Part shown: in pieces, positions 5,601-16,651 of the stretch
Numbering within the stretch: the first letter of the stretch is position 1
Layout: each line of letters begins with the position of its first letter
From: Vulcanimicrobiota bacterium
Lineage (GTDB): Bacteria > Eremiobacterota > Eremiobacteria > Baltobacterales > Baltobacteraceae
Reading direction: 5' to 3'
Assembly (NCBI GenBank): GCA_030042755.1
Contig: JASHZC010000343.1
Coordinates: 1 to 16,651 of the forward strand
DNA length: 16,651 bases
Position numbers and translations under genes: made by a program
The notes under the pieces: model-generated
Databases searched by the model: none
The model's input: the letters and a program-made list of their open reading frames with translations, nothing else
Told to the model about the DNA's origin: nothing

Positions 5601-6850
5601 TCGAGCGGTTGTGCGAGCTGTTCGAAATCGACGCGCGCATTCGTGAGGCATCGATGCGAGCCTACGAACGCACGCGCGACCTGCGCTATCCGGCGCAACA
5701 AGAAGTGAAAGCGCGTGTCATGCGTGCCTTCTTTGACGAAGGCGTTCACGAAAGCGATCTTGCGGGCACGACGGGGTACGGATACGATGACGCCGCGCGC
5801 GAGCGATACGAATCGCTGCTTTCGCGTATCTTCGGCGCGGAGCGCGTCTTGGCACGCCTCTCGATCGTCAGCGGCACGCACGCGATTCTTGCCGCACTGG
5901 CGGCTTGCGTTCCGCCCGGAGGCCGGCTGATCTCGGTGGCTGGGCGTCCCTACGATACGCTACGCAACGCGATCTCCGACGCGGAGCATTCGCTCGTTTC
6001 GCAAGGGATTCGCTACGAAGAAATTCCGCTTCGCGAGGACGGATCGCTCGATCTCGACGCGATCTGCGAATCGGCCGTCCAGCCCGAGGTGGCGGCTGTA
6101 TTCGTGCAGCGATCGCGAGGCTATGCTCCGCGCCCGTCGCTCGACGTGCGCGCTTGCAACGAATTGAACGCGCGCCTCAAACAGAAAGCGCCTCACGTCG
6201 CGGTGCTGGTCGACAACTGCTACGGCGAGTTGGTCGAGGCGACCGAACCCACGCACGGCGGCGCCGACCTCGTGATGGGGTCGCTGATCAAGAATCTCGG
6301 CGGCTCCCTTGCGCCGGCCGGCGGCTACATCGCGGGCCGAAATGACCTCGTCGCGCGCGTCAGCGCCCGCCTCTTCGCCCCGGGCCTACGCAGCGCGCTC
6401 GGGCCCACGCTCGGCTTCGGACGGGCCTTCATTCAGGGGCTGTTCGTCGCTCCGGCGGTGGTCGAGCAAACCTTGCGCGGCCTGGATTTTGCCGCCGCGC
6501 TGTTCGAAGAACTCGGCTTCCCGGTCGACCCCCGTCCAGGCGCGGTGCGCACCGATATCGTGCAGGCGATACGGCTAGGGGACCCGCAGCGTCTGTTGCG
6601 TTTCGCGGCCGGGCTTCAGACCGCTATGCCGATCAACGCGCGTTTTCGTCCCGAGCCGGGGCCCGTGCCCGGTTATGCCGATCCCGTCATCATGTCGAGC
6701 GGAGCCTTTGTGGGCGGTGCGACGATCGAGCTTTCCTGCGATGCGCCGCTGCGAGCGCCGTACGAGGTATATCTCCAGGGCGGAATCGTTGCCGAACACT
6801 CGATGCTAGGGTCGATGCTCGCCGCGCAGGCGGCCGTTGCGGGCGGCTGA
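5597..6850 (+). CDS. YnbB-type PLP enzyme (methionine gamma-lyase / aluminium resistance family)
   Basis: Fold-type I PLP enzyme of 417 aa in the family of Bacillus YnbB, annotated as methionine gamma-lyase family or aluminium resistance protein; its physiological reaction is not established. Seen here: the cofactor phosphate region SGTHAIL (92-98), Asp206 in VDNCYGE for the pyridine nitrogen, the Schiff-base Lys232 in GSLIKNLGG, and the family-typical N-terminus with TTGYGYDD. It overlaps the EIIC stop by four bases (ATGA), so the two are co-translated downstream of lexA. A long open frame continues upstream through the EIIC gene in this phase but encodes nothing recognisable there, so ATG 5597 is the start. 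Confidence 0.9.
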   Translation: MIERLCELFEIDARIREASMRAYERTRDLRYPAQQEVKARVMRAFFDEGVHESDLAGTTGYGYDDAARERYESLLSRIFGAERVLARLSIVSGTHAILAALAACVPPGGRLISVAGRPYDTLRNAISDAEHSLVSQGIRYEEIPLREDGSLDLDAICESAVQPEVAAVFVQRSRGYAPRPSLDVRACNELNARLKQKAPHVAVLVDNCYGELVEATEPTHGGADLVMGSLIKNLGGSLAPAGGYIAGRNDLVARVSARLFAPGLRSALGPTLGFGRAFIQGLFVAPAVVEQTLRGLDFAAALFEELGFPVDPRPGAVRTDIVQAIRLGDPQRLLRFAAGLQTAMPINARFRPEPGPVPGYADPVIMSSGAFVGGATIELSCDAPLRAPYEVYLQGGIVAEHSMLGSMLAAQAAVAGG

Positions 6851-6887
6851 AGGCCGCGCGGCGGCACCGAGAGAACAACTCTTTCCG

Positions 6888-7247
6888 GTGAGCACTCGAG
6901 ACAACCGCTCGCATGAGCGGCGATTCGTTCGCACAACCGTTGCTTTCCCGGTGACGATCATCGTACCGGGCGGCGAATTGGTGCTGAACGGAACCGCAGT
7001 TGACCTCAGTCGCGGCGGAATGCGCGTTGCAACGTCGACGGATCTCCCCGCGGGACAGCCGATCGTTTTGCGATTCACGCTTCCCGGAGGCGATCGCGAG
7101 ATGTTAGTGCGTGCAAAAATCGTGCTGACGTTCTACGAAGCGTCGAGCAAGTCGTACGCGCACGGCGTCGCCTTCACGCAGTATACGTCCGCCGATCATG
7201 AAAAGATTGGGGCGTACGTAGAGTCAGTGCAGCCGGCGAAGCAATAG
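6888..7247 (+). CDS. PilZ-domain protein, candidate cyclic-di-GMP receptor
   Basis: Single-domain PilZ protein of 119 aa. PilZ domains bind cyclic di-GMP through an RxxxR motif and a (D/N)xSxxG motif. Both are visible, as RRFVR near the N-terminus and DLSRGGMRV about 35 residues later, followed by alternating beta-strand-like segments (PIVLRFTLPGG, LVRAKIVLTF, YAHGVAFTQY). The GTG at 6888 places RRFVR close to the start as usual; an in-frame TTG at 6837 would overlap the preceding gene. The Shine-Dalgarno is weak for either. It follows the YnbB-type gene by 37 nt and ends three bases before a convergent gene. The target process cannot be told from the context. Confidence 0.85.
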   Translation: MSTRDNRSHERRFVRTTVAFPVTIIVPGGELVLNGTAVDLSRGGMRVATSTDLPAGQPIVLRFTLPGGDREMLVRAKIVLTFYEASSKSYAHGVAFTQYTSADHEKIGAYVESVQPAKQ

Positions 7248-7589: not shown

Positions 7590-7883
7590 ATGTACCTGCT
7601 TGAGGTCCTGAGTGGACCACTCGACGGAAAGACTTGGACGTTCGACAACGAGATTACTATCGGCCGCGATGACTCCGTCGCCCAGGCATGCTTAGCCCTC
7701 GATCGGTACGTCTCACGCAAGCATGCGCACGTGCGCATCGACGGGGACGACGTGCGTCTCACCGACCTGGAAAGCCGAAACGGCACCAAGGTCAACGGTC
7801 AGCCCGTTACCGGCGACGCGGCGCTCGAGATCGGCGTTCCATTTATGGTCGGTCGCACGGTACTACGCGTCACGCGCTTGTAG
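7590..7883 (+). CDS. FHA-domain phosphothreonine-binding protein
   Basis: The 97-aa protein is essentially one forkhead-associated domain, which recognises phosphothreonine peptides. The signature residues are in order: Gly25-Arg26 (ITIGRD), Ser42-Arg-Lys-His45 (VSRKHAHV), Asn64-Gly-Thr66 (LESRNGTKV) and Asn69-Gly70. Nothing else is fused: no transmembrane segment and no zinc ribbon. It starts at ATG with only a weak Shine-Dalgarno (GAAGGG). It lies 13 nt upstream of panC in the same direction and may lead that transcript. Its partner kinase is not in the window. Confidence 0.93.
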   Translation: MYLLEVLSGPLDGKTWTFDNEITIGRDDSVAQACLALDRYVSRKHAHVRIDGDDVRLTDLESRNGTKVNGQPVTGDAALEIGVPFMVGRTVLRVTRL

Positions 7884-8728: not shown

Positions 8729-9901
8729 ATGAACGGTTCGCGCATTCTGATTGGTGTATGCGGCGGTATCGCCGCGTACAAGATCGCGGGACTCGTAAGC
8801 ACGCTCGTGCAGCGCGGAGCGCAGATCGACGTCGTCATGTCGTCGAGCGCAGAGCGATTCGTCGCCCCATTGACGTTCGCGTCGCTAACGGCGCGCCCCG
8901 TATATACGTCGTTGTGGGACGCGCCCGAACGCATCCCGCACATTCGCCTCGTCCGCGAGGCCCAGGTTATGCTGATTGCCCCGGCTACCGCGAACGCAAT
9001 CGCACGTTTGGCCGCCGGCATCGCTGACGATCTCGTCACCGCATGTGCGCTCGCCGCGCGCATACCGGTGATCGTTGCGCCGGCGATGAACGGCGCAATG
9101 CTCGAGAATCCGGCTACGGTCGAAAATCTGCGCGTGCTGCGCGAGCGAGGCTATGAGTTTGTCGATCCCGAGCGGGGCTTCTTGGCGGAACGCGAGAGCG
9201 GGGTCGGTCGACTGGCTAACGAGGAGCGGCTGCTCGAAGCGCTCGAGCGCGTGCTGAACCGCGGGCGCTCGCTCGCGGGAACGAACGTGCTCGTGACCGC
9301 CGGGCCAACGCGCGAGGAATTCGACCCGATTCGTTTTTTGAGCAATGCTTCGAGCGGTTCGACCGGGATCGCGATCGCGCGTGAAGCTGCATTACGCGGG
9401 GCGACGGTGACGCTGCTGCTCGGACCGACGGTGCTCGAACCGCCCGCCGGCGTAACGACGCTTCGCTTCACGACGGCGCAGGAGCTGTACGATCTGGCGT
9501 TGTCGCATGTCAGAGGCGTCGGAATCGTGATCGCAAGCGCCGCGGTTTCGGATTGGCGCCCTGCCGAACGATCCGAAACGAAACTGAAAAAAACGGACGC
9601 TGACCTCGTTGTGCGCATGGTGCGTAACCCCGACGTCCTCGCAGCGATTGCTGAACGCACGGACGCGTTCATCGTGGGATTTGCCGCGGAAACGGACGAT
9701 CACGAAGCTAATGCGCGCGAGAAGCTGGCACGCAAAGGTCTCGATGCAATTATCGTTAACGACGTGCGCCAGGGGCGCGGTTTCGGAACGGGAGAGAACA
9801 CGCTGATCATGCTGTGGAAGGATGGGCGCAAGGAGCTCGGTACGTCGACCAAGGCCGAACTTGCGGCGCGTCTGTTCGATGCAATTGAGGAATTGCGCTG
9901 A
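8729..9901 (+). CDS. coaBC: bifunctional phosphopantothenoylcysteine decarboxylase / phosphopantothenate-cysteine ligase
   Basis: Catalyses CoA steps two and three: 4'-phosphopantothenate is joined to cysteine (CoaB, C-terminal), then decarboxylated to 4'-phosphopantetheine (CoaC, N-terminal flavoprotein). It is 390 aa. CoaC: the flavin loop GVCGGIAAYK, catalytic His71 (IPHIRL) and the PAMN motif (118-121) are present. The substrate flap, usually ACGxxGxGRM with a redox-active cysteine (Cys158 in E. coli Dfp), here reads AERESGVGRL with Glu154 at the cysteine position. CoaB: VTAGPTREEFDPIRFLSNASSG with Asn206, and the KLKK lysines before MVRNPDVLA. ATG 8729 is chosen because homology starts there. 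The stop overlaps the coaX start as TGATG. Confidence 0.96.
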   Translation: MNGSRILIGVCGGIAAYKIAGLVSTLVQRGAQIDVVMSSSAERFVAPLTFASLTARPVYTSLWDAPERIPHIRLVREAQVMLIAPATANAIARLAAGIADDLVTACALAARIPVIVAPAMNGAMLENPATVENLRVLRERGYEFVDPERGFLAERESGVGRLANEERLLEALERVLNRGRSLAGTNVLVTAGPTREEFDPIRFLSNASSGSTGIAIAREAALRGATVTLLLGPTVLEPPAGVTTLRFTTAQELYDLALSHVRGVGIVIASAAVSDWRPAERSETKLKKTDADLVVRMVRNPDVLAAIAERTDAFIVGFAAETDDHEANAREKLARKGLDAIIVNDVRQGRGFGTGENTLIMLWKDGRKELGTSTKAELAARLFDAIEELR

Positions 9902-10668
9902 TGCTGCTGGCGATTGACGTAGGGAACACGGAAACAAAACTCGGCTGCTTCAACGATGGCGACGAGCGGCTCGTTCACCATTGGCGCGTCACGACCGAAT
10001 CGCGCAGAACCGCCGATGAATACGGCGTGTTCTTCACGCAGCTCTTTTCGACCGCCGGCATAAGCCTTCAGGAGATCGACGACGTCGCAATTGCAAGCGT
10101 CGTTCCGCGGCTCGATCATACCCTCGTCGAGGTCTGCAAAAAATTCTTCGGTGTGACGCCCGAAGTGCTCGAGCCGCAAAGTCAACGGCTCATCGCGGTC
10201 AAGACCGATCGCCCCGCCGAGGTTGGCGCCGATCTGGTCGCGTGCGCGATTGGCGGACGCGAGCGGTACGGGTCTCCACTGATTCTTGTGAGTTACGGCA
10301 CCGCGACGGTGTTCATGGCCATCTCCAAAGGAGAGTATCTCGGCGTTGCCATTGCGCCCGGCATCAGCATTTCTATCGACGCGCTCGTGAGTCGCGCGGC
10401 AAAGCTGCCGCAAATCGCGCTCGACGCGCCGGAGCACGCGATCGGGCGCAACACCGTGGAAAGCTTGCAGGCCGGATTCGTTTTCGGATTCGTCGGCCAG
10501 ACCGAAGCGATCGTCGCCCGTATGCGTGAAGAGATGGGGGAAAACGCGCGTGTCGTTGCGACCGGCGGATTGGCAGACGTGGTCGCGCGTCACAGCAAGA
10601 TCATCGAGCGCGTCGATCCACATCTGAGTTTGTACGGCTTGCAGCTCTATCATAGCGATCAGCGTTAG
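9901..10668 (+). CDS. coaX: type III pantothenate kinase
   Basis: Phosphorylates pantothenate to 4'-phosphopantothenate, the first committed step of CoA synthesis. Type III enzymes are ASKHA-fold, feedback-insensitive and need a monovalent cation. It is 255 aa. Seen: the nucleotide loop DVGNTETKLG (6-15), catalytic Asp111 in EVGAD, GTAT (133-136, Thr134 near ATP), IAPGI and IGRNTVESLQAG (Thr185). Two departures from the family: the potassium-binding aspartate of the usual VDFGTATT is Ser131 here (VSYGTATV), and the arginine after GAD is leucine. The start overlaps the coaBC stop by one base, so panC-coaBC-coaX is one unit. A lower-activity or altered-cation enzyme is possible. Confidence 0.93.
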   Translation: MLLAIDVGNTETKLGCFNDGDERLVHHWRVTTESRRTADEYGVFFTQLFSTAGISLQEIDDVAIASVVPRLDHTLVEVCKKFFGVTPEVLEPQSQRLIAVKTDRPAEVGADLVACAIGGRERYGSPLILVSYGTATVFMAISKGEYLGVAIAPGISISIDALVSRAAKLPQIALDAPEHAIGRNTVESLQAGFVFGFVGQTEAIVARMREEMGENARVVATGGLADVVARHSKIIERVDPHLSLYGLQLYHSDQR

Positions 10669-10687
10669 GGAGGCTCTAGGAGGTCGA

Positions 10688-11188
10688 ATGCGTGCACTGT
10701 CCCTCGCGGCCGTGATCATTGGGATCGTGACATGCGCGTGTTCGAGCACTGCGTCGAACGCCACGTCGGGGAATGCGTATCAATGCGACGACCGGCAATT
10801 TGTCTCCGACCAGGGTGGCTTTGCACAGGGTTCGGTTACGGGAGATCAGTTCGTCGACGTGTGCGGCCGAGTGACCTCGGTATATCGCGCGCGCGCAACG
10901 CGAAGCGGACAGCACGGATATTTTTACGTCGCAGTCCCGGGGAGCACGAGCGCGATCGAGATCGTCTCGAATCTCGATGCCATGGCAGAGGCTCCAAGCG
11001 GCGACCCGCCGGCCTGGCCGTGGGTCGCGCCGGGCGATTACGTCTTCGTGCAGGGCCGATACTATTACGACAGCAGCTACAGTCAGGGCATCGACTGGAC
11101 CGAGGACGACGAGAGCCGCTCGTGGCCGCACGCCGGATACGTCGTCGTATGCGATGCGGCCCGCCAAAACTGCCGGCTTTATCAGTAG
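10688..11188 (+). CDS. exported DUF3465-like protein
   Basis: A 166-aa protein with a hydrophobic N-terminal signal (residues 3-15) ending TCACSS. Cys18 could be lipidated, but the lipobox is imperfect (Thr at -3, Ala at -1), so secretion or membrane anchoring is more certain than lipoprotein status. The mature part resembles DUF3465 proteins, small OB-like periplasmic domains, in the run SGQHGYFYVAV, IEIVSNLDAMAEA, APGDYVFVQGRYYYD and GIDWTEDDESRSWPHAGYVV. The histidines of the usual HWTHHD are replaced (DWTEDD). Four further cysteines in the mature part (33, 59, 155, 162) could form disulfides. AGGAGG lies four bases before ATG, the strongest ribosome site in the window. Function is unknown; it follows coaX by 19 nt. 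Confidence 0.7.
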   Translation: MRALSLAAVIIGIVTCACSSTASNATSGNAYQCDDRQFVSDQGGFAQGSVTGDQFVDVCGRVTSVYRARATRSGQHGYFYVAVPGSTSAIEIVSNLDAMAEAPSGDPPAWPWVAPGDYVFVQGRYYYDSSYSQGIDWTEDDESRSWPHAGYVVVCDAARQNCRLYQ

Positions 11189-11214
11189 GCGCCCTGTGCT
11201 ATACTACGGGCGCC
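11188..11214. promoter_or_regulatory. palindrome around an extended -10, directly before dus
   Basis: GGCGCCC (11188-11194) and GGGCGCC (11208-11214) form a perfect 7-bp inverted repeat whose 13-nt loop holds TGC-TATACT, an extended -10 box (TATACT 11200-11205). The right arm ends on the base before the dus start codon. Transcription from this -10 would begin around 11212, giving a nearly leaderless mRNA; no convincing -35 or Shine-Dalgarno is seen. It could be an operator or an RNA hairpin at the start codon. Confidence 0.5.
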
Positions 11215-12222
11215 ATGCACCCCACCGTGCCGCCGCTGCGCATCGGCGATCATAACATCTGGCCGCCTTTGATCTTGGCGCCCATGTCCGGCGTAACCAA
11301 CCGGACGATGCGAGCGCTGTACAAGCCGTTCGGACTTGGGCTTACCGTCACCGAGTTCGTTTCTTCGAACGCGCTCAAGTACGGCAGCCGGCGCACGATG
11401 GAGATGATCGACCAGCACGGGCTTGAGAAGCCGGTATCGACGCAGCTGTGGGGCGACGATCCCGCAACGATGGCGTCCGCGGCGAAAGTCGTACGTGAGT
11501 GCGGCGCCGACATCGTGGACATTAATTTTGGATGTCCGGCTCCGAAAGTCACCAAGACAAACGGTGGATCCGCGTGTTTGCGCGACGTCGATCGTTGCGA
11601 AGCAATCATGAAGGCGGTCGTCGCTGCGGTCGACTGTCCGGTGACGATGAAGATGCGACTTGGGTGGAGCGAGAGCGATCTCGTCTACGTTGACGTTGCC
11701 AAGCGCGCGCAAGAGGTGGGCGTGCAAGCCGTCACGCTGCACGCGCGCACGGCGCGGCAATTCTACAAAGGTAACGCCGACTGGGAGCATATCAAGCGGC
11801 TCAAATCATCGGTGGATATTCCGGTAATCGGCAACGGCGATCTTGACGACGCGCATATCGCGATCGAGCGTATGCGCGCGAGCGGAGTCGACGCGATCAT
11901 GCTTGGGCGCGGAACGCTCGGCAATCCTTGGCTCATCTCGCAAATCGCCGATCTCATGGAGGGCCGAGCGGCGCGCCCGACGCCATGCGCGGCGGATCGG
12001 CTGCGGTTCTGCATCGTACACTACCGTGCAATGGTAGCCGAGTGGGGAGAAGCGCGCGCCGTACCGCAGATGCGCAAACATGTCGCGCTCTACCTCAAAG
12101 GCATTCCGGGAGCGGCCGTATTGCGCGAACGGATGATGCGCATCGATACGGCCGTGGAAGCGATCGCGGCTATCGAAGCGGCGATCGCGCGCGTCGAAAC
12201 CTCACCGACGGCCGCCGCGTGA
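11215..12222 (+). CDS. tRNA-dihydrouridine synthase, DusB-like
   Basis: FMN-dependent enzyme that reduces uridines in the tRNA D-loop to dihydrouridine. It is 335 aa. It has an N-terminal TIM barrel with LAPMSGVTNRTMR (FMN site), VDINFGCPAPKVTKTNGGSACLRD containing the catalytic Cys107, PVTMKMRLGW, VTLHARTARQFYKGNADW, PVIGNGDLDD, and GVDAIMLGRGTLGNPWLI (phosphate site), then a C-terminal helical tRNA-binding domain (MRKHVALYLKGIPGA). These match the DusB branch common to bacteria. A long frame continues upstream through the preceding gene but has no homology, so ATG 11215 is the start. The next gene begins one base after the stop. Confidence 0.94.
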   Translation: MHPTVPPLRIGDHNIWPPLILAPMSGVTNRTMRALYKPFGLGLTVTEFVSSNALKYGSRRTMEMIDQHGLEKPVSTQLWGDDPATMASAAKVVRECGADIVDINFGCPAPKVTKTNGGSACLRDVDRCEAIMKAVVAAVDCPVTMKMRLGWSESDLVYVDVAKRAQEVGVQAVTLHARTARQFYKGNADWEHIKRLKSSVDIPVIGNGDLDDAHIAIERMRASGVDAIMLGRGTLGNPWLISQIADLMEGRAARPTPCAADRLRFCIVHYRAMVAEWGEARAVPQMRKHVALYLKGIPGAAVLRERMMRIDTAVEAIAAIEAAIARVETSPTAAA

Positions 12223-12223
12223 C

Positions 12224-12970
12224 ATGCCCGTCACGGTCGAACTCGTTCCAATTCTGGCACGGTTGCGCGATCTTTACGCGCAACCGCGCGGATTGGCCCG
12301 GTTCGAGGGGTATCTCGAGCTCTTGCGTTCGCAAACCGGAGCGATGGAGTTGCCCCTTTCCGGCGTCAATCCGATGGCCAAAACGCGCGCGCCGGTCGTC
12401 GTCGAGCGGCTCCTCGCACTCGAGGCCGAGAGTGTCGTGATTTCTGCCGCCCGCGAAGGGGTGCAGCGACTTCGGGATCTCGACGATGCATTACGCTTCG
12501 CGGTGATCGTTGCCGACGACGCGGACGGTGGCTGGACCAACAGAGCGTTTTCCGAATTCGCACATCGGTACGAACGAAAGCACGAAGTGCAGCGCGGCTG
12601 GGCGACCGTCGTGATGTGGAGCAGCGAGGATCCCTCAGAGGAGCTGGTGCGCACGCGCACGCTCGAAACGATGTACCGTACGGTCGATGAATTAGAGCAC
12701 GGCGCGGTTCGCACGCTGCGTGCGATTCTCAATCGCGAGGGACGTACGATGCGCTTCGCCGGGCACGAGCCCCGCTACGATGATGCGACCGTGCAGCGCA
12801 TTCGCGAGCGCATCGAGCCGCATCTGGATTCGCATGCGGCGCCGGTGGTTTTGGCTGCACTCTACGGTGACGATATCGCTCGATCCCTTGGCTACCCGCC
12901 GCTCGGCATTCCCGATCGCGGCGGCTACGAACTCGCGCTGGCGAACGCCACGGAGGCGGTCGCGCGTTGA
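12224..12970 (+). CDS. conserved-looking protein of unknown function
   Basis: A 248-aa protein, probably soluble and cytoplasmic, with no signal, membrane segment or motif I recognise. It begins MPVTVELVPILARLRDLYAQ and is mostly charged helices. The middle has a strand-like stretch with an acidic cluster (RFAVIVADDADGGWT) and WATVVMWSSEDPSEE. The end is glycine-rich (YPPLGIPDRGGYELALANATEAV). It sits one base after the dus stop, and its own stop overlaps the aminotransferase start as TTGA, so it is translated in the same unit and may belong to the pathway downstream. Codon use matches its neighbours. The reality of the gene is well supported; its role is not. Confidence 0.8.
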   Translation: MPVTVELVPILARLRDLYAQPRGLARFEGYLELLRSQTGAMELPLSGVNPMAKTRAPVVVERLLALEAESVVISAAREGVQRLRDLDDALRFAVIVADDADGGWTNRAFSEFAHRYERKHEVQRGWATVVMWSSEDPSEELVRTRTLETMYRTVDELEHGAVRTLRAILNREGRTMRFAGHEPRYDDATVQRIRERIEPHLDSHAAPVVLAALYGDDIARSLGYPPLGIPDRGGYELALANATEAVAR

Positions 12971-14226
12971 CACGAGAGGTCACCGAAGATCTCGCAACGG
13001 AAGCGTTCGAGAACTACAAGAGTTACGTCAATCCTCCGCTCGCGCGGGTGATGAAGCTTTCCGGATCGCCGGTTGAAGTGCGTGCTTCGGGCAGCACGAT
13101 CTGGGATCAGAACGGCAAGGCGTATCTCGATTTCGCAGGTGGATACGGCGTGTTTACGCTCGGTCATTCGCATCCGCGCGTTATTGCGGCCGTTAAAGAA
13201 CAAATGGAGCGCATGTCGCTCTCCGGCAAGACGATGTTCAACGTCATGCTGGGCCGCGCGGCGAAGCGGCTCGCGGAGATTGCTCCGGGCGATCTGCAGA
13301 TATCGTTTTGGTGCAACAGCGGAACCGAAGCGCTCGAAGGCGCGATCAAGCTTGCGCGCGTGGCAACCGGACGCGTAAAAATCGTTTCGACGCATGACGC
13401 GTACCACGGGAAAACGCTCGGTGCGCTTTCGATCAGCGGCCGCGAGACGTTTCGCGTTCCGTTTGCGCCGTTGCTCGCCGATGTGGCCCGCGTGCCGTTC
13501 GGTGACGCGTCGGTTCTCGCGGATGCGCTTGACGGCGCCGCCGCCTTCGTTGTCGAGCCGGTGCAAGGAGAGGGCGGAGTCAACGTTCCGCCCGCCGGGT
13601 ACCTGCGCGCGGTGCGCGAGGCGTGCGATCGCGCGGGCGCGCTCTTCATCGCAGATGAAGTGCAAACGGGGCTCGGGCGGTGTGGATATCTCTTTGCGTG
13701 CGAACGCGACGGCGTCGTGCCCGACGTGATGACGCTCGCCAAAGGGCTTTCCGGCGGCATCGTGCCGGTCGGAGCGTACATTGCGCGGGCCGACGTTTGG
13801 AACCGCGCCTATGCGAAGCAGCCGCTGATTCATACTTCGACGTTTGGCGGAAGCGAGATCGCGTGCGCTGCGGCGATCGCGGCAATCGACGTGCTCGTCG
13901 AAGACGATCTCGTCGCGAACGCGCGCGCTCGGGGCGATCAGCTTCTCGACGGCTGCCGGACGCTCGCGCTCGAATATCCGCAGGTGATCCGCGAAGCGCG
14001 CGGGCTGGGGCTGCTGGTTGGCGTGGAGCTCACCAACGAAGGCTACGGTGGCTGGATCATTCCCGAGATGCTCAAAGCGGGCGTAACCGCTGCGTGGACG
14101 CTCAATCAACAGCGTGTCATTCGCCTCGAGCCGCCGCTCGTCGTGAGCGAAGGCGAAGTCGACCTCGCGCTCTCCGCTCTGAGCGCAGGGGTAGCGGCCG
14201 CAGCCGAGAAGCTCGGGCGCTTGTAA
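12967..14226 (+). CDS. class III PLP aminotransferase, putrescine aminotransferase-like
   Basis: Fold-type I, class III transaminase of 419 aa; these move amino groups between omega-amines or amino acids and aldehydes or keto acids. It aligns along its length with E. coli putrescine aminotransferase (PatA/YgjG): NYKSYVNPPL, FAGGYGVFTLGHSHP, WCNSGTEALEGAIKLA (PLP phosphate), DAYHGKTLGALS, EPVQGEGGVNVPPAGYL, ADEVQTGLGR (Asp230), LAKGLSGG (Schiff-base Lys259) and STFGGSEIACAAA. The TTG start at 12967 has GGAGG 10 nt upstream and keeps the homologous N-terminus. The substrate is open: a diamine, an omega-amino acid or, given the acyl-ACP reductase homologue two genes on, a long-chain aldehyde. 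The gap to the next gene is two bases. Confidence 0.92.
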   Translation: MTREVTEDLATEAFENYKSYVNPPLARVMKLSGSPVEVRASGSTIWDQNGKAYLDFAGGYGVFTLGHSHPRVIAAVKEQMERMSLSGKTMFNVMLGRAAKRLAEIAPGDLQISFWCNSGTEALEGAIKLARVATGRVKIVSTHDAYHGKTLGALSISGRETFRVPFAPLLADVARVPFGDASVLADALDGAAAFVVEPVQGEGGVNVPPAGYLRAVREACDRAGALFIADEVQTGLGRCGYLFACERDGVVPDVMTLAKGLSGGIVPVGAYIARADVWNRAYAKQPLIHTSTFGGSEIACAAAIAAIDVLVEDDLVANARARGDQLLDGCRTLALEYPQVIREARGLGLLVGVELTNEGYGGWIIPEMLKAGVTAAWTLNQQRVIRLEPPLVVSEGEVDLALSALSAGVAAAAEKLGRL

Positions 14227-14228
14227 AA

Positions 14229-14663
14229 ATGGCCTACGTCGAAACCAGGATCGCGATTGCTGCTCCAGCACGCGAAGTCTACGAACTTGCCAAAGATCAG
14301 GAGCGGTTTCCCGAGTTCATGCCGGACGTCGAGACGGTCAAGGTGCTCGAGCGTCATCCTGACCGGGTCATTTCGCGTTGGAAAACGCTGGTCGAAGAAG
14401 CGCCCATCGAGTGGACGGAAGAGGATCGCTTCGACGACGACGCGCTGCGGATCGAGTACGCGTTGCTGGAGGGAGATCTCGAGACGTTCGAAGGCGCCTG
14501 GACGTTCGAGGAGCGCGACGGCTTGACGCACGTACTGCTCACCGTAGAGTATGATTTCGGGGTCCCGACGCTAGCCGAGCTGATTGGGCCGACGCTTCAG
14601 AAGAAGGTGCTCGAGAACAGCGAGATGATGTTGAACGCGCTGAAGGCGCAAGCAGAGCAATGA
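14229..14663 (+). CDS. SRPBCC (START/Coq10-like) ligand-binding protein
   Basis: A 144-aa single-domain protein of the helix-grip SRPBCC superfamily, nearest to the Coq10/polyketide-cyclase-like group. It has an N-terminal strand plus ETRIAIAAPAREVYELAKDQERFPEFMPDVETVKVLE, central antiparallel strands, and a long C-terminal helix (LQKKVLENSEMMLNALKAQ) that closes the cavity. Such folds bind hydrophobic small molecules such as quinones, lipids or polyketide intermediates; no catalytic residue can be named. It lies two bases after the aminotransferase, and its stop overlaps the next start as ATGA. Context suggests it handles a substrate or product of the flanking enzymes. RatA-type naming is possible but uninformative. 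Confidence 0.85.
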   Translation: MAYVETRIAIAAPAREVYELAKDQERFPEFMPDVETVKVLERHPDRVISRWKTLVEEAPIEWTEEDRFDDDALRIEYALLEGDLETFEGAWTFEERDGLTHVLLTVEYDFGVPTLAELIGPTLQKKVLENSEMMLNALKAQAEQ

Positions 14664-15775
14664 AGTTCTGTTTCGTTATTCACCCGCTTTCGCTCGACGA
14701 CGTTGCGCGATACGAACCCGGTGCAGCCGGGAAGGGCGCGCCGATCATCCGCAAGATCCTCGAGTGGATGCCGTCGTACGCCGCCGTCCACGTCACCGGC
14801 GTGCGGACCCCCGACGGACGCGAAACCGAGGGCTGGTTTGTCGCTGCTCCGCTGCTTCCCGAGCAAATAATGGATCTGCCGCGCGAAGAGGTCTACAAGC
14901 GCATCGTGCGCGCAATCGAGATCGGCGCGGAACTGGGCGCGGAAGTCGCCGGCTTGGGAGCGTTTACCGGAGTGGTTGGCGACGGGGGCATCACGATTGC
15001 CGAACGCTCGCCCATCGCGGTGACGACGGGGAATTCGCTCACGATCGCTGCCGGCATACAAAGTTTCTTCCGCGGCGCGCGCGAGATGGACGTCGATCCG
15101 GCGCAATCGACTGCAACGATCGTCGGCGCGACAGGCTCGATCGGCGGCGCCTGCGTGAAGCTGATTGCGCCCTTCGTAAACCATATCGTGCTCGTTGCGC
15201 GCAACAACACGCGCCTTTCGAAGTTTGCCGAGCAAATGAAGAACGAACTGCCGTGCGAGGTCTCGTATACGACCGATATTCCGCAAGCAGTGCGCCGCTC
15301 GCAACTCGTGCTGACGGCGACGTCTTCAACGCAGGACGTCATCGAGCCGGAAGATTTACGGACCGGCGCGGTTGTGTGCGAGCTCTCTCTCCCGCACGAC
15401 GTGAGCCGCCGTGTCGCGGTCGAACGCCCGGACGTGCTCGTCACCGAAGGCGGAAACATGGTCGTTCCCGGCCATCCGTTCTTCGAGCGCGTGCGCGAGC
15501 CTGGAACTGAATTCGATCTCAATCTGCCGCCGCGAACTGCGCTCGCGTGCATGAGCGAGACGATGGTTCTCGCACTCGAAAATCGCGCCGAATGTTACAC
15601 GCTCGGTCGCGGCATCGATGTCAACAAGGTCGTCGAGATCGAGCAAATGGCGGCGCGCTGCGGTTTCACGTTGGCCGACATGCGCGCGTTCGATGCGGCA
15701 ATCACGCCGGAGAAGATTGCGGCGACAAAAGCAGCGGCGCTGCGCATCGACAACGTGGGAGCGAGCACGACGTGA
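14660..15775 (+). CDS. acyl-ACP reductase (AAR)-like enzyme
   Basis: The 371-aa protein resembles cyanobacterial acyl-[acyl-carrier-protein] reductase, which reduces acyl-ACP or acyl-CoA to fatty aldehyde with NADPH. Shared blocks are GLGAFTGVVG (98-107), the TTGN motif (122-125), the Rossmann loop VGATGSIGGA (155-164) followed by VLVARNNTRL, EGGNMVVPGHPFF, and LACMSETMVLALE. In the last, Cys297 aligns with the catalytic, acylated Cys294 of Synechococcus AAR (FACFAEAMLLEFE). The C-terminal LGRGIDVNKVVEIEQMAARCGF also matches. The N-terminal 60 residues differ, and the C-terminus runs about 25 residues longer. Automatic annotation might call it shikimate dehydrogenase-like. Coupled by ATGA to the SRPBCC gene and by GTGA to the next; no aldehyde-deformylating oxygenase is seen. 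Confidence 0.82.
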   Translation: MKFCFVIHPLSLDDVARYEPGAAGKGAPIIRKILEWMPSYAAVHVTGVRTPDGRETEGWFVAAPLLPEQIMDLPREEVYKRIVRAIEIGAELGAEVAGLGAFTGVVGDGGITIAERSPIAVTTGNSLTIAAGIQSFFRGAREMDVDPAQSTATIVGATGSIGGACVKLIAPFVNHIVLVARNNTRLSKFAEQMKNELPCEVSYTTDIPQAVRRSQLVLTATSSTQDVIEPEDLRTGAVVCELSLPHDVSRRVAVERPDVLVTEGGNMVVPGHPFFERVREPGTEFDLNLPPRTALACMSETMVLALENRAECYTLGRGIDVNKVVEIEQMAARCGFTLADMRAFDAAITPEKIAATKAAALRIDNVGASTT

Positions 15776-16651
15776 AGCGCGTGGTTTCGGTTTCGCTGGG
15801 CAGTTCGACGCGGGATCACCGCGCGGTCGTGCAACTGCTCGGGGAAGAGTTCGACATTTCGCGGGAAGGCGTCGACGGAAAGCTCGATGCCGCAATCGCG
15901 CGCGTGCGCGAACTCGACGGAGCGGTCGATGCCATCGGTCTTGGCGGAATCGACGTGTATCTCTATGCCGGATCGAAGCGCTACGCGTTGCGTGACGGCG
16001 TGCGGCTGCTGCAGGCCGCGAAGGTGACGCCCGTCGTCGACGGGAGCGGCTTAAAAAACACGCTCGAGCGCAATGCAGTCCGGTACATGCAAGACGAGAT
16101 GGGCATACATCTGCGCGGCAAGCACGTGCTGATGGTCAGCGCGCTCGACCGTTTTGGAATGGCGCAGGCGTTGGTCGACGCCGGCGCCGACATCCTGTTC
16201 GGCGATTTCATCTTTGCACTCGACAAAGACATGGCGGTGCGCGACCTGCACACGTTCGAGGAGATGGCGGAGAAGTATCTGCCGGACGCGTGCAAGCTCC
16301 CGTTTCAATTTTTCTATCCAACCGGGAAAAAGCAAGAGAAGCCGCCCGAGCCCAAATATCCGCAATACTATGAGGAAGCCGATATCATCGCGGGCGACTT
16401 TCACTTCATGCGCCAATTCATGCCGGAACGGATCGACGGGAAGATCGTGCTGACAAACACGGTAACTCCCGCGAACGTCGACGAATTGCGCGATCGCGGT
16501 GTGAATATGCTGATTACCACAACGCCCGATTTTCAAGGCCGTTCTTTCGGGACCAACGTCGTCGAGGCTGCTCTGTTGGCGCTGCTCGGCAAGCGCTGGG
16601 AAGACGTCAGTCCGAACGATTACGAGCGGCTATTGCGCGAATTGCACTTGC
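15772..16651 (+). CDS. quinate 5-dehydrogenase-labelled family protein, 3' end missing
   Basis: An open frame runs from GTG 15772 to the window end (293 complete codons, no stop). The GTG overlaps the upstream stop as GTGA, and GGGAG at 15757-15761 serves as ribosome site. From memory, the sequence (VKRVVSVSLGSSTRDHR, GLGGIDVYLYAG, VVDGSGLKNTLERNAVRYM, VLMVSALDRFGMAQAL, AGADILFGDFIFAL) belongs to a family that databases label quinate 5-dehydrogenase. I cannot see the glycine-rich GxGxxG/A loop or the Lys-Asp pair of true shikimate/quinate dehydrogenases, so that label is doubtful. TTTPDFQGRSFGTNVVEAALLALLG near the end is strikingly regular and likely conserved. It probably works on the same substrate as the AAR-like enzyme. 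Confidence 0.75.
   Translation, partial: MKRVVSVSLGSSTRDHRAVVQLLGEEFDISREGVDGKLDAAIARVRELDGAVDAIGLGGIDVYLYAGSKRYALRDGVRLLQAAKVTPVVDGSGLKNTLERNAVRYMQDEMGIHLRGKHVLMVSALDRFGMAQALVDAGADILFGDFIFALDKDMAVRDLHTFEEMAEKYLPDACKLPFQFFYPTGKKQEKPPEPKYPQYYEEADIIAGDFHFMRQFMPERIDGKIVLTNTVTPANVDELRDRGVNMLITTTPDFQGRSFGTNVVEAALLALLGKRWEDVSPNDYERLLRELHL

Follow-up and report, generated by a model that had tools for sequence, protein, structure and literature searches.

The 16,651-nucleotide stretch of Vulcanimicrobiota DNA analysed here (contig JASHZC010000343.1, hereafter the window) carries a run of four same-strand genes, encoding a class III aminotransferase (AT), a START-type protein (START), an acyl-thioester reductase of the AAR family (AAR) and a protein of the 'quinate 5-dehydrogenase' family (Q5DH). 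With modest confidence, we favour as the best explanation of this set a conversion of acyl-acyl carrier protein (acyl-ACP), by way of a fatty aldehyde, to an alkylamine destined for membrane lipids of the N-glyceroyl alkylamine type. At its centre stands a pairing recognised in this analysis: Q5DH and AAR form one module. Samples of three phyla show them together, and in three genomes of a fourth phylum the two are fused.

The reading frames of the window confirmed the run of AT, START, AAR and Q5DH on the + strand. AT (PF00202; 419 amino acids, TTG start, pyridoxal phosphate lysine K259) spans 12967..14226. It is followed at 14229..14663 by START, a 144-residue START/SRPBCC protein of the polyketide cyclase / lipid transport kind (PF03364), at 14660..15775 by AAR (371 amino acids), and at 15772..16651 by Q5DH, of which the window end leaves 293 of about 301 amino acids. 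A TTGA at 12967-12970 holds the stop of the preceding gene and the start of AT, two nucleotides separate the AT stop (14226) from the START ATG (14229), and the START/AAR and AAR/Q5DH junctions are an ATGA (14660-14663) and a GTGA (15772-15775), respectively. The coupling described in the original prediction was thus borne out. Sixty-five loci were collected, 60 of them Eremiobacterota-like, and a gene was counted as present if at least 70% of the query was matched. All four genes were found in 41 of the 60, in the order AT-START-AAR-Q5DH and on one strand in 41/41, with all three intergenic gaps below 150 nt in 24; unrelated or opposite-strand genes are inserted in other Eremiobacterota loci. 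The other 19 loci lack one or more genes at this length, most of them stopping at a contig edge on the relevant side. Two exceptions, each 21 kb long and not limited by an edge, are L047 (AAR-Q5DH without AT or START nearby) and L052 (START-AAR-Q5DH without AT). The open reading frame preceding AT (ORF248, 12224-12970) had a match in only three of the 65 loci (L001, L037 and L046); although its stop overlaps the AT start, it was therefore placed outside the gene set. In L040, L041, L043, L048, L049 and L050, inserted genes separate START from AAR; these vary between loci and were rejected as pathway members.

AAR resembles the N-terminal half of PigE. Its best match in the PDB is PigE (4ppm, 135 bits), the cyanobacterial AAR 6jzq scoring 56 bits; a profile search gave 210 and 161 bits for the same two structures. 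AAR matched PF01488 in Pfam (36 bits) and the N-terminal half of the PigE model in NCBIfam (200.7 bits), and scored 76.8 bits against the model of cyanobacterial long-chain acyl-ACP reductase, TIGR04058, below its curated cut-off of 449.7. The protein has a GATGSIG motif at residues 156-162, and its catalytic cysteine, C297, is present in all 29 aligned rows. C297 lies at the position of PigE Cys296, the equivalent of Cys294 in cyanobacterial AAR (PMC8341465). The five closest relatives of the window AAR, 84-87% identical, are from Candidatus Eremiobacterota contigs. L050, a record labelled Rhodospirillales, has an Eremiobacterota-like locus whose AAR is 70% identical and is probably a mis-binned contig; in L055 (3998-5107) the AAR frame diverges from the family across part of its C-terminal half in a frameshift-like manner.

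AT matched PF00202 (331 bits) and, among NCBIfam models, putrescine aminotransferase (431 bits) and the C-terminal half of PigE (419 bits). It stayed below the curated cut-offs for putrescine aminotransferases (377 versus 658.65 bits for TIGR03372; 431.2 versus 612 bits for NF008570), and K259 is kept in 11/11 aligned rows. By homology, AT and AAR correspond to the halves of PigE and TamH, here encoded by separate genes, and they likely produce a fatty amine between them. The aminotransferase-reductase fusion PtTamH turns C12 acyl-ACP into C12 amine with NADH and glutamate; together with PtTamA it takes C12 acid through PtTamA-loaded C12 acyl-ACP to the C12 amine in vitro. It does not accept free acyl-CoA, and its aminotransferase half takes C7-C14 aldehydes (PMC9594044). 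Both steps, thioester to aldehyde to amine, have been argued for PigE (PMC8341465), and another such fusion, KecF, takes part in koreenceine synthesis, its activity being predicted (PMC6498172). The route from acyl thioester through aldehyde to amine suggested in the original prediction is therefore well founded, but it is known chemistry, already carried out by the PigE/TamH halves, and the label 'undescribed' had to be dropped in view of PigE, TamH and KecF. A set running in reverse, degrading amines or aldehydes, would draw on the reversibility of transaminases and on the action of putrescine aminotransferases in putrescine breakdown. We consider this very improbable, given that TamH runs from thioester through aldehyde to amine, that the work on PigE argues for the same direction, and that the near-universal setting described below is unlike an optional catabolic operon.

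In a tree of 33 aminotransferases, which included no E. coli putrescine aminotransferase, the window AT grouped with those of Eremiobacterota (support 100/100). This clade joined START-linked ATs of Bacillota and one AT of Armatimonadota (94/84, below the star level of the tool). PigE, the AT-AAR fusions, the Moorella-type AT and other Bacillota ATs without START formed a separate clade (100/99). Judged from these sequences, there are two aminotransferase lineages, one START-linked and one of the PigE/fusion type. START itself scored 74.1 bits with PF03364, above the Pfam gathering score of 23.4. Its best PDB relative is 2d4r, 'hypothetical protein TTHA0849' (E 3.1e-22), whose TTHA prefix we take to stand for Thermus thermophilus HB8. 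START is optional to the gene set, since it was found in only 20 of the 199 genomes of the Bacillota sample described below (the match in G164 being partial, 44.8 bits). Seventeen of the 20 carry all four families; AT precedes START by at most 400 nt in 17 of the 19 that have an AT, whose remaining two show distances of 1.9 and 3.2 kb. The START profile gave no match in G104, and the 4-kb Armatimonadota locus that carries the AT likewise contained no START match. Among the neighbours of AT in 15 Bacillota loci, START was present in seven and no other family in more than five; the family present in five looks by inspection like a transporter ATPase. In L155 and L158, two shared genes lie about 5-8 kb from AT, near AT-START; by inspection we presume them to be plsY- and gpsA-like genes of phospholipid synthesis.

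The 'quinate 5-DH' of the original prediction found no backing as an activity. Q5DH matched 0 families in Pfam and 0 in NCBIfam, so no model for a shikimate or quinate dehydrogenase recognised it, and the best hits of PDB sequence searches had E values of 0.39 and 0.31. Among 140 genomes of the phylum of G004, a genome with a frame of 1544 amino acids, Q5DH was found in three, in each case as the N-terminal part of a fusion with AAR. The cysteine motif reads ACLAETI in two of these fusions; the third has AAVVEAA there, without the cysteine. A structural model of a fusion (model A5) had a predicted local distance difference test score of 90.2 and a predicted template modelling score of 0.71; the latter leaves the packing of the two halves unsettled.

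Sample labels (Bacillota, Armatimonadota, Deltaproteobacteria) were taken from L057, L058 and L064; the Bacillota sample is the phylum of G001, the genome to which L057 belongs, and in all samples some matches are partial, at contig edges. The Bacillota sample was searched with TIGR04058 at 1e-10 for AAR, a Q5DH profile at 1e-20, the PigE model at 1e-105 for AT and a START profile at 1e-8. Co-occurrence outside this genome, set beforehand as the refuting test of the original prediction, was found there: AAR matched in 119 of 199 genomes, Q5DH in 153 and AT in 120, with AAR and Q5DH together in 117, AAR alone in two, Q5DH alone in 36 and neither in 44 (Fisher p 1.4e-19, ignoring kinship). Where AAR is a stand-alone frame, Q5DH was present in 104 of 105 genomes, the exception, G025, having its AAR at a contig edge; in 90 of the 105, Q5DH lies directly upstream of AAR on the same strand, with 49-420 nt between match ends. 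AT-AAR fusions were called from AT matches in open frames of at least 850 amino acids. Thirty-two genomes have such a frame and 30 of them have Q5DH; sixteen of the long frames also match TIGR04058, and one, in G123, is PigE over the cut-off. The long frames of L126, L127, L162 and L163 hold both AT and AAR (the last three being close relatives), and in L126 the fusion stands directly after Q5DH. Altogether, Q5DH was present in 129 of the 132 Bacillota-sample genomes with AAR or a long AT frame. In the Eremiobacterota sample (118 genomes) AAR was found in 114 and Q5DH in 111, the four without AAR also being without Q5DH. In the Armatimonadota sample (121 genomes) each was found in 113 and both in 109 (Fisher p 5e-4, again ignoring kinship), 58 genomes having an adjacent pair in the order Q5DH then AAR; for six of the 113 AAR genomes the only match was a weaker one (176-260 bits) in a frame of 567-625 amino acids.

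Some Bacillota loci showed variations around Q5DH. In L138 (8439-9347), L139 (8904-9773) and L140 (7723-8631), Q5DH is followed by a frame of about 290-300 amino acids instead of AAR; these frames matched no AAR profile in any of the three loci and no Pfam family in L138 and L139. A gene of about 177 amino acids precedes Q5DH in several loci, among them L130 (11851-12387, - strand) and L131 (7920-8453). Of these two copies, one matched a helix-turn-helix family weakly (PF01381, 25.8 bits) and the other gave no match; the gene might be a regulator of the module.

N-glyceroyl alkylamine lipids reportedly occur in several Bacillota, to go by the title of Bale et al. 2025. Strains of Thermus and Meiothermus have a phosphoglycolipid of this type as their major phospholipid, and Deinococcus radiodurans has a related one (PMC3035268, PMC3398001). 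Table 1 of PMC13274423 gives N-glyceroyl alkylamines for Moorella thermoacetica and lists none for six other Bacillota strains. A family 'annotated as quinate 5-dehydrogenase' occurs in 33/33 Deinococcus genomes and also in Thermus, and is counted among the uncharacterised families expected to be important (PMC9425974); going by its name, we infer that it is Q5DH. Fourteen control genomes were scored as match or no match, irrespective of gene order. TIGR04058 at 1e-10 matched three of them, S. elongatus, Thermus composti and Deinobacterium chartae, and the PigE model, used for AT, matched Thermus composti and E. coli at both 1e-105 and 1e-95. In G104, Q5DH adjoins AAR and AT scored 519 bits with the PigE model; its Q5DH is 93-96% identical to six Moorella or Neomoorella proteins, none of them labelled M. 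thermoacetica. A 2022 paper regards an alkylamine pathway in Thermus as probably existing (PMC9636437). The literature searched, with subscription papers mostly outside it, did not name genes for the lipid amine of Deinococcus or Thermus. Genes that would couple the amine with glycerate did not turn up, though they were not sought genome-wide. The distribution of the gene set hints at N-glyceroyl alkylamine-type lipids as the destination of the amine.

Several observations weigh against this assignment. A profile alignment of Q5DH with AAR (hhalign) was not significant (probability 0.4%), so that the kinship of the two rests on fold, adjacency and fusion. At 1e-25, TIGR04058 matched S. elongatus only; the Thermus and Deinobacterium signals fall between 1e-25 and 1e-10, and the AAR signals of Deinococcota are therefore moderate. 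The PigE model gave no AT match in Deinobacterium at 1e-95, and it did match in E. coli, which is not known for such lipids, so that a match in the AT test does not single out lipid makers. Neither M. thermoacetica nor the other six Bacillota strains in PMC13274423 Table 1 entered the gene-lipid comparison, and the Q5DH-AAR pair is near universal in the Armatimonadota sample, whose lipids were not compared. In the sources consulted, the polar lipids of Vulcanimicrobium, the one cultured relative considered, are given as unidentified and no alkylamine lipid data appear for Eremiobacterota; the ThermusQ pathway page cited by PMC9636437, which lay outside the literature search, may name candidate genes. 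Of the 153 Q5DH genomes in the Bacillota sample, 24 (e.g. G007 and G158) gave neither an AAR match nor a long AT frame under the thresholds applied; they might hold divergent reductases, or Q5DH might have a further role. Finally, the putrescine aminotransferase model scores the window AT as high as PigE does, AT is far from Q5DH-AAR in most Bacillota-sample genomes, and at 1e-105 AT is missing from 15 genomes that carry both AAR and Q5DH. These last three points would suit an alternative in which the fatty aldehydes made by AAR and Q5DH go to other products, for example alcohols, wax or ether lipids, and AT is a putrescine-type enzyme with no link to them beyond the common operon. Such an arrangement appears unlikely to us, as AT-AAR fusions recur, nearly always with Q5DH and once adjoining it (L126), and as the window AT groups with START-linked ATs beside the PigE/fusion/Moorella-type clade, in a tree, as stated, lacking the E. 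coli enzyme.

The neighbourhood of the module bears on two further alternatives. In the Bacillota loci L129, L133 and L134, CoaX (by BLAST to the window CoaX), a Dus-like gene and a gene of about 180-220 amino acids precede Q5DH-AAR, and genes that by inspection are greA- and lysS-like follow it in L129 and L133, lysS alone in L134; partial versions of this setting were seen in L130, L131 and L132. Ahead of the gene set, the window likewise carries CoaX (named by inspection, 9901-10668) and DusB (351 bits with TIGR00737). The succession of CoaX and a Dus-like gene before the module is thus common to the window (9901-12222) and to L129, L130, L133 and L134, though the order of Q5DH and AAR is reversed; it is perhaps an old common neighbourhood, the Dus-like genes of the loci having been named by inspection. 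Such surroundings of core genes are easier to reconcile with housekeeping than with a secondary metabolite. A set making its amines for a secondary metabolite like prodigiosin, tambjamine or koreenceine would agree with the roles of PigE, TamH and KecF, all of which serve such products, and with three plasmid fusion loci that lie in pig-like clusters. Yet no such cluster was seen among the ten window proteins scanned (a part of the window's frames), the high frequencies of AAR and Q5DH in the Eremiobacterota sample are at odds with it, and tblastn of Q5DH against 72,556 plasmid records gave no match at E 1e-3, as against 17 matches for AAR. It is accordingly a most improbable role. A housekeeping setting would also suit a set in which AAR, Q5DH and AT act on a small acyl thioester or aminoacyl group, reducing and aminating it to a small core metabolite, in the manner of glutamyl-tRNA reductase and its aminomutase partner. 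AAR does resemble glutamyl-tRNA reductase weakly (44 bits in NCBIfam; 3oj0 and 1gpj in the PDB profile search), and the module has core genes as neighbours in Bacillota loci and occurs in nearly every genome of two phylum samples. Nevertheless, the closest characterised relatives, PigE and TamH, use medium to long chains, and AT is linked to START, a hydrophobic-ligand-binding fold; we therefore see the small-metabolite alternative as doubtful, with some claim to attention.

Elsewhere in the window, genes for a methionine gamma-lyase family protein (PF06838, 5546-6847), a PilZ domain protein (6837-7247) and an FHA domain protein (7590-7883) were noted, and Rfam and tRNA scans of the window gave no match.

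In the alkylamine pathway that we favour, AAR would take the fatty acyl group from acyl-ACP onto Cys297 and reduce it with NAD(P)H to the fatty aldehyde, as its homology and conserved residues suggest. AT would then transfer an amino group, probably derived from glutamate, onto the aldehyde, by analogy with TamH and PigE. Adjacency, fusion and fold suggest that Q5DH works together with AAR, probably as a second protomer that has an AAR-like fold but lacks the catalytic cysteine; it would shape the substrate site or pass on the aldehyde. START, in lineages that have it, may shield or move the greasy intermediate. Distribution suggests as the most likely destination of the amine the lipids of the N-glyceroyl alkylamine type known from Deinococcus, Thermus and Moorella, in which it would form the amide tail. 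More tentatively, and as a proposal that may well prove wrong, Q5DH-AAR could be the core of an old alkylamine-lipid pathway shared by Deinococcota, several Bacillota, Eremiobacterota and Armatimonadota, with Q5DH as the cysteine-less, AAR-fold partner in a hetero-dimeric reductase and either of the two AT lineages, START-linked or PigE/fusion, finishing the amine. If this were true, the missing amine genes of the Deinococcus/Thermus phosphoglycolipids would be named, and such lipids would be predicted in Armatimonadota and in the Eremiobacterota, uncultured soil bacteria. The gene set is a concrete candidate source of the long-chain amine in the main phosphoglycolipids of Deinococcus and Thermus, and it would assign a role to an uncharacterised family that one study lists for each of its 33 Deinococcus genomes (PMC9425974).

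Among known systems, N-glyceroyl alkylamine phosphoglycolipids (Deinococcus, Thermus, Meiothermus and some Bacillota) contain as their amine part the proposed product of the set, and the gene distribution overlaps their known producers; the difference is that no report of them was found for Eremiobacterota. With cyanobacterial AAR (TIGR04058, 6jzq), the window AAR shares the sequence family, the catalytic cysteine and, by homology, the fold, but it falls below the TIGR04058 cut-off and adjoins AT and Q5DH. PigE, TamH and KecF have the same two enzyme families, the catalytic cysteine, the pyridoxal phosphate lysine and the presumed order from acyl thioester through aldehyde to amine. Unlike the window set, with two separate genes and START and Q5DH as partners, they are single bifunctional polypeptides. 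PigE and the fusions fall in a different tree clade from the window AT, and the curated PigE cut-off is 850 bits, whereas the window halves score 419 (AT) and 201 (AAR). Finally, PigE, TamH and KecF serve prodigiosin, tambjamine and koreenceine clusters, whereas the window set is near universal in the Eremiobacterota sample.

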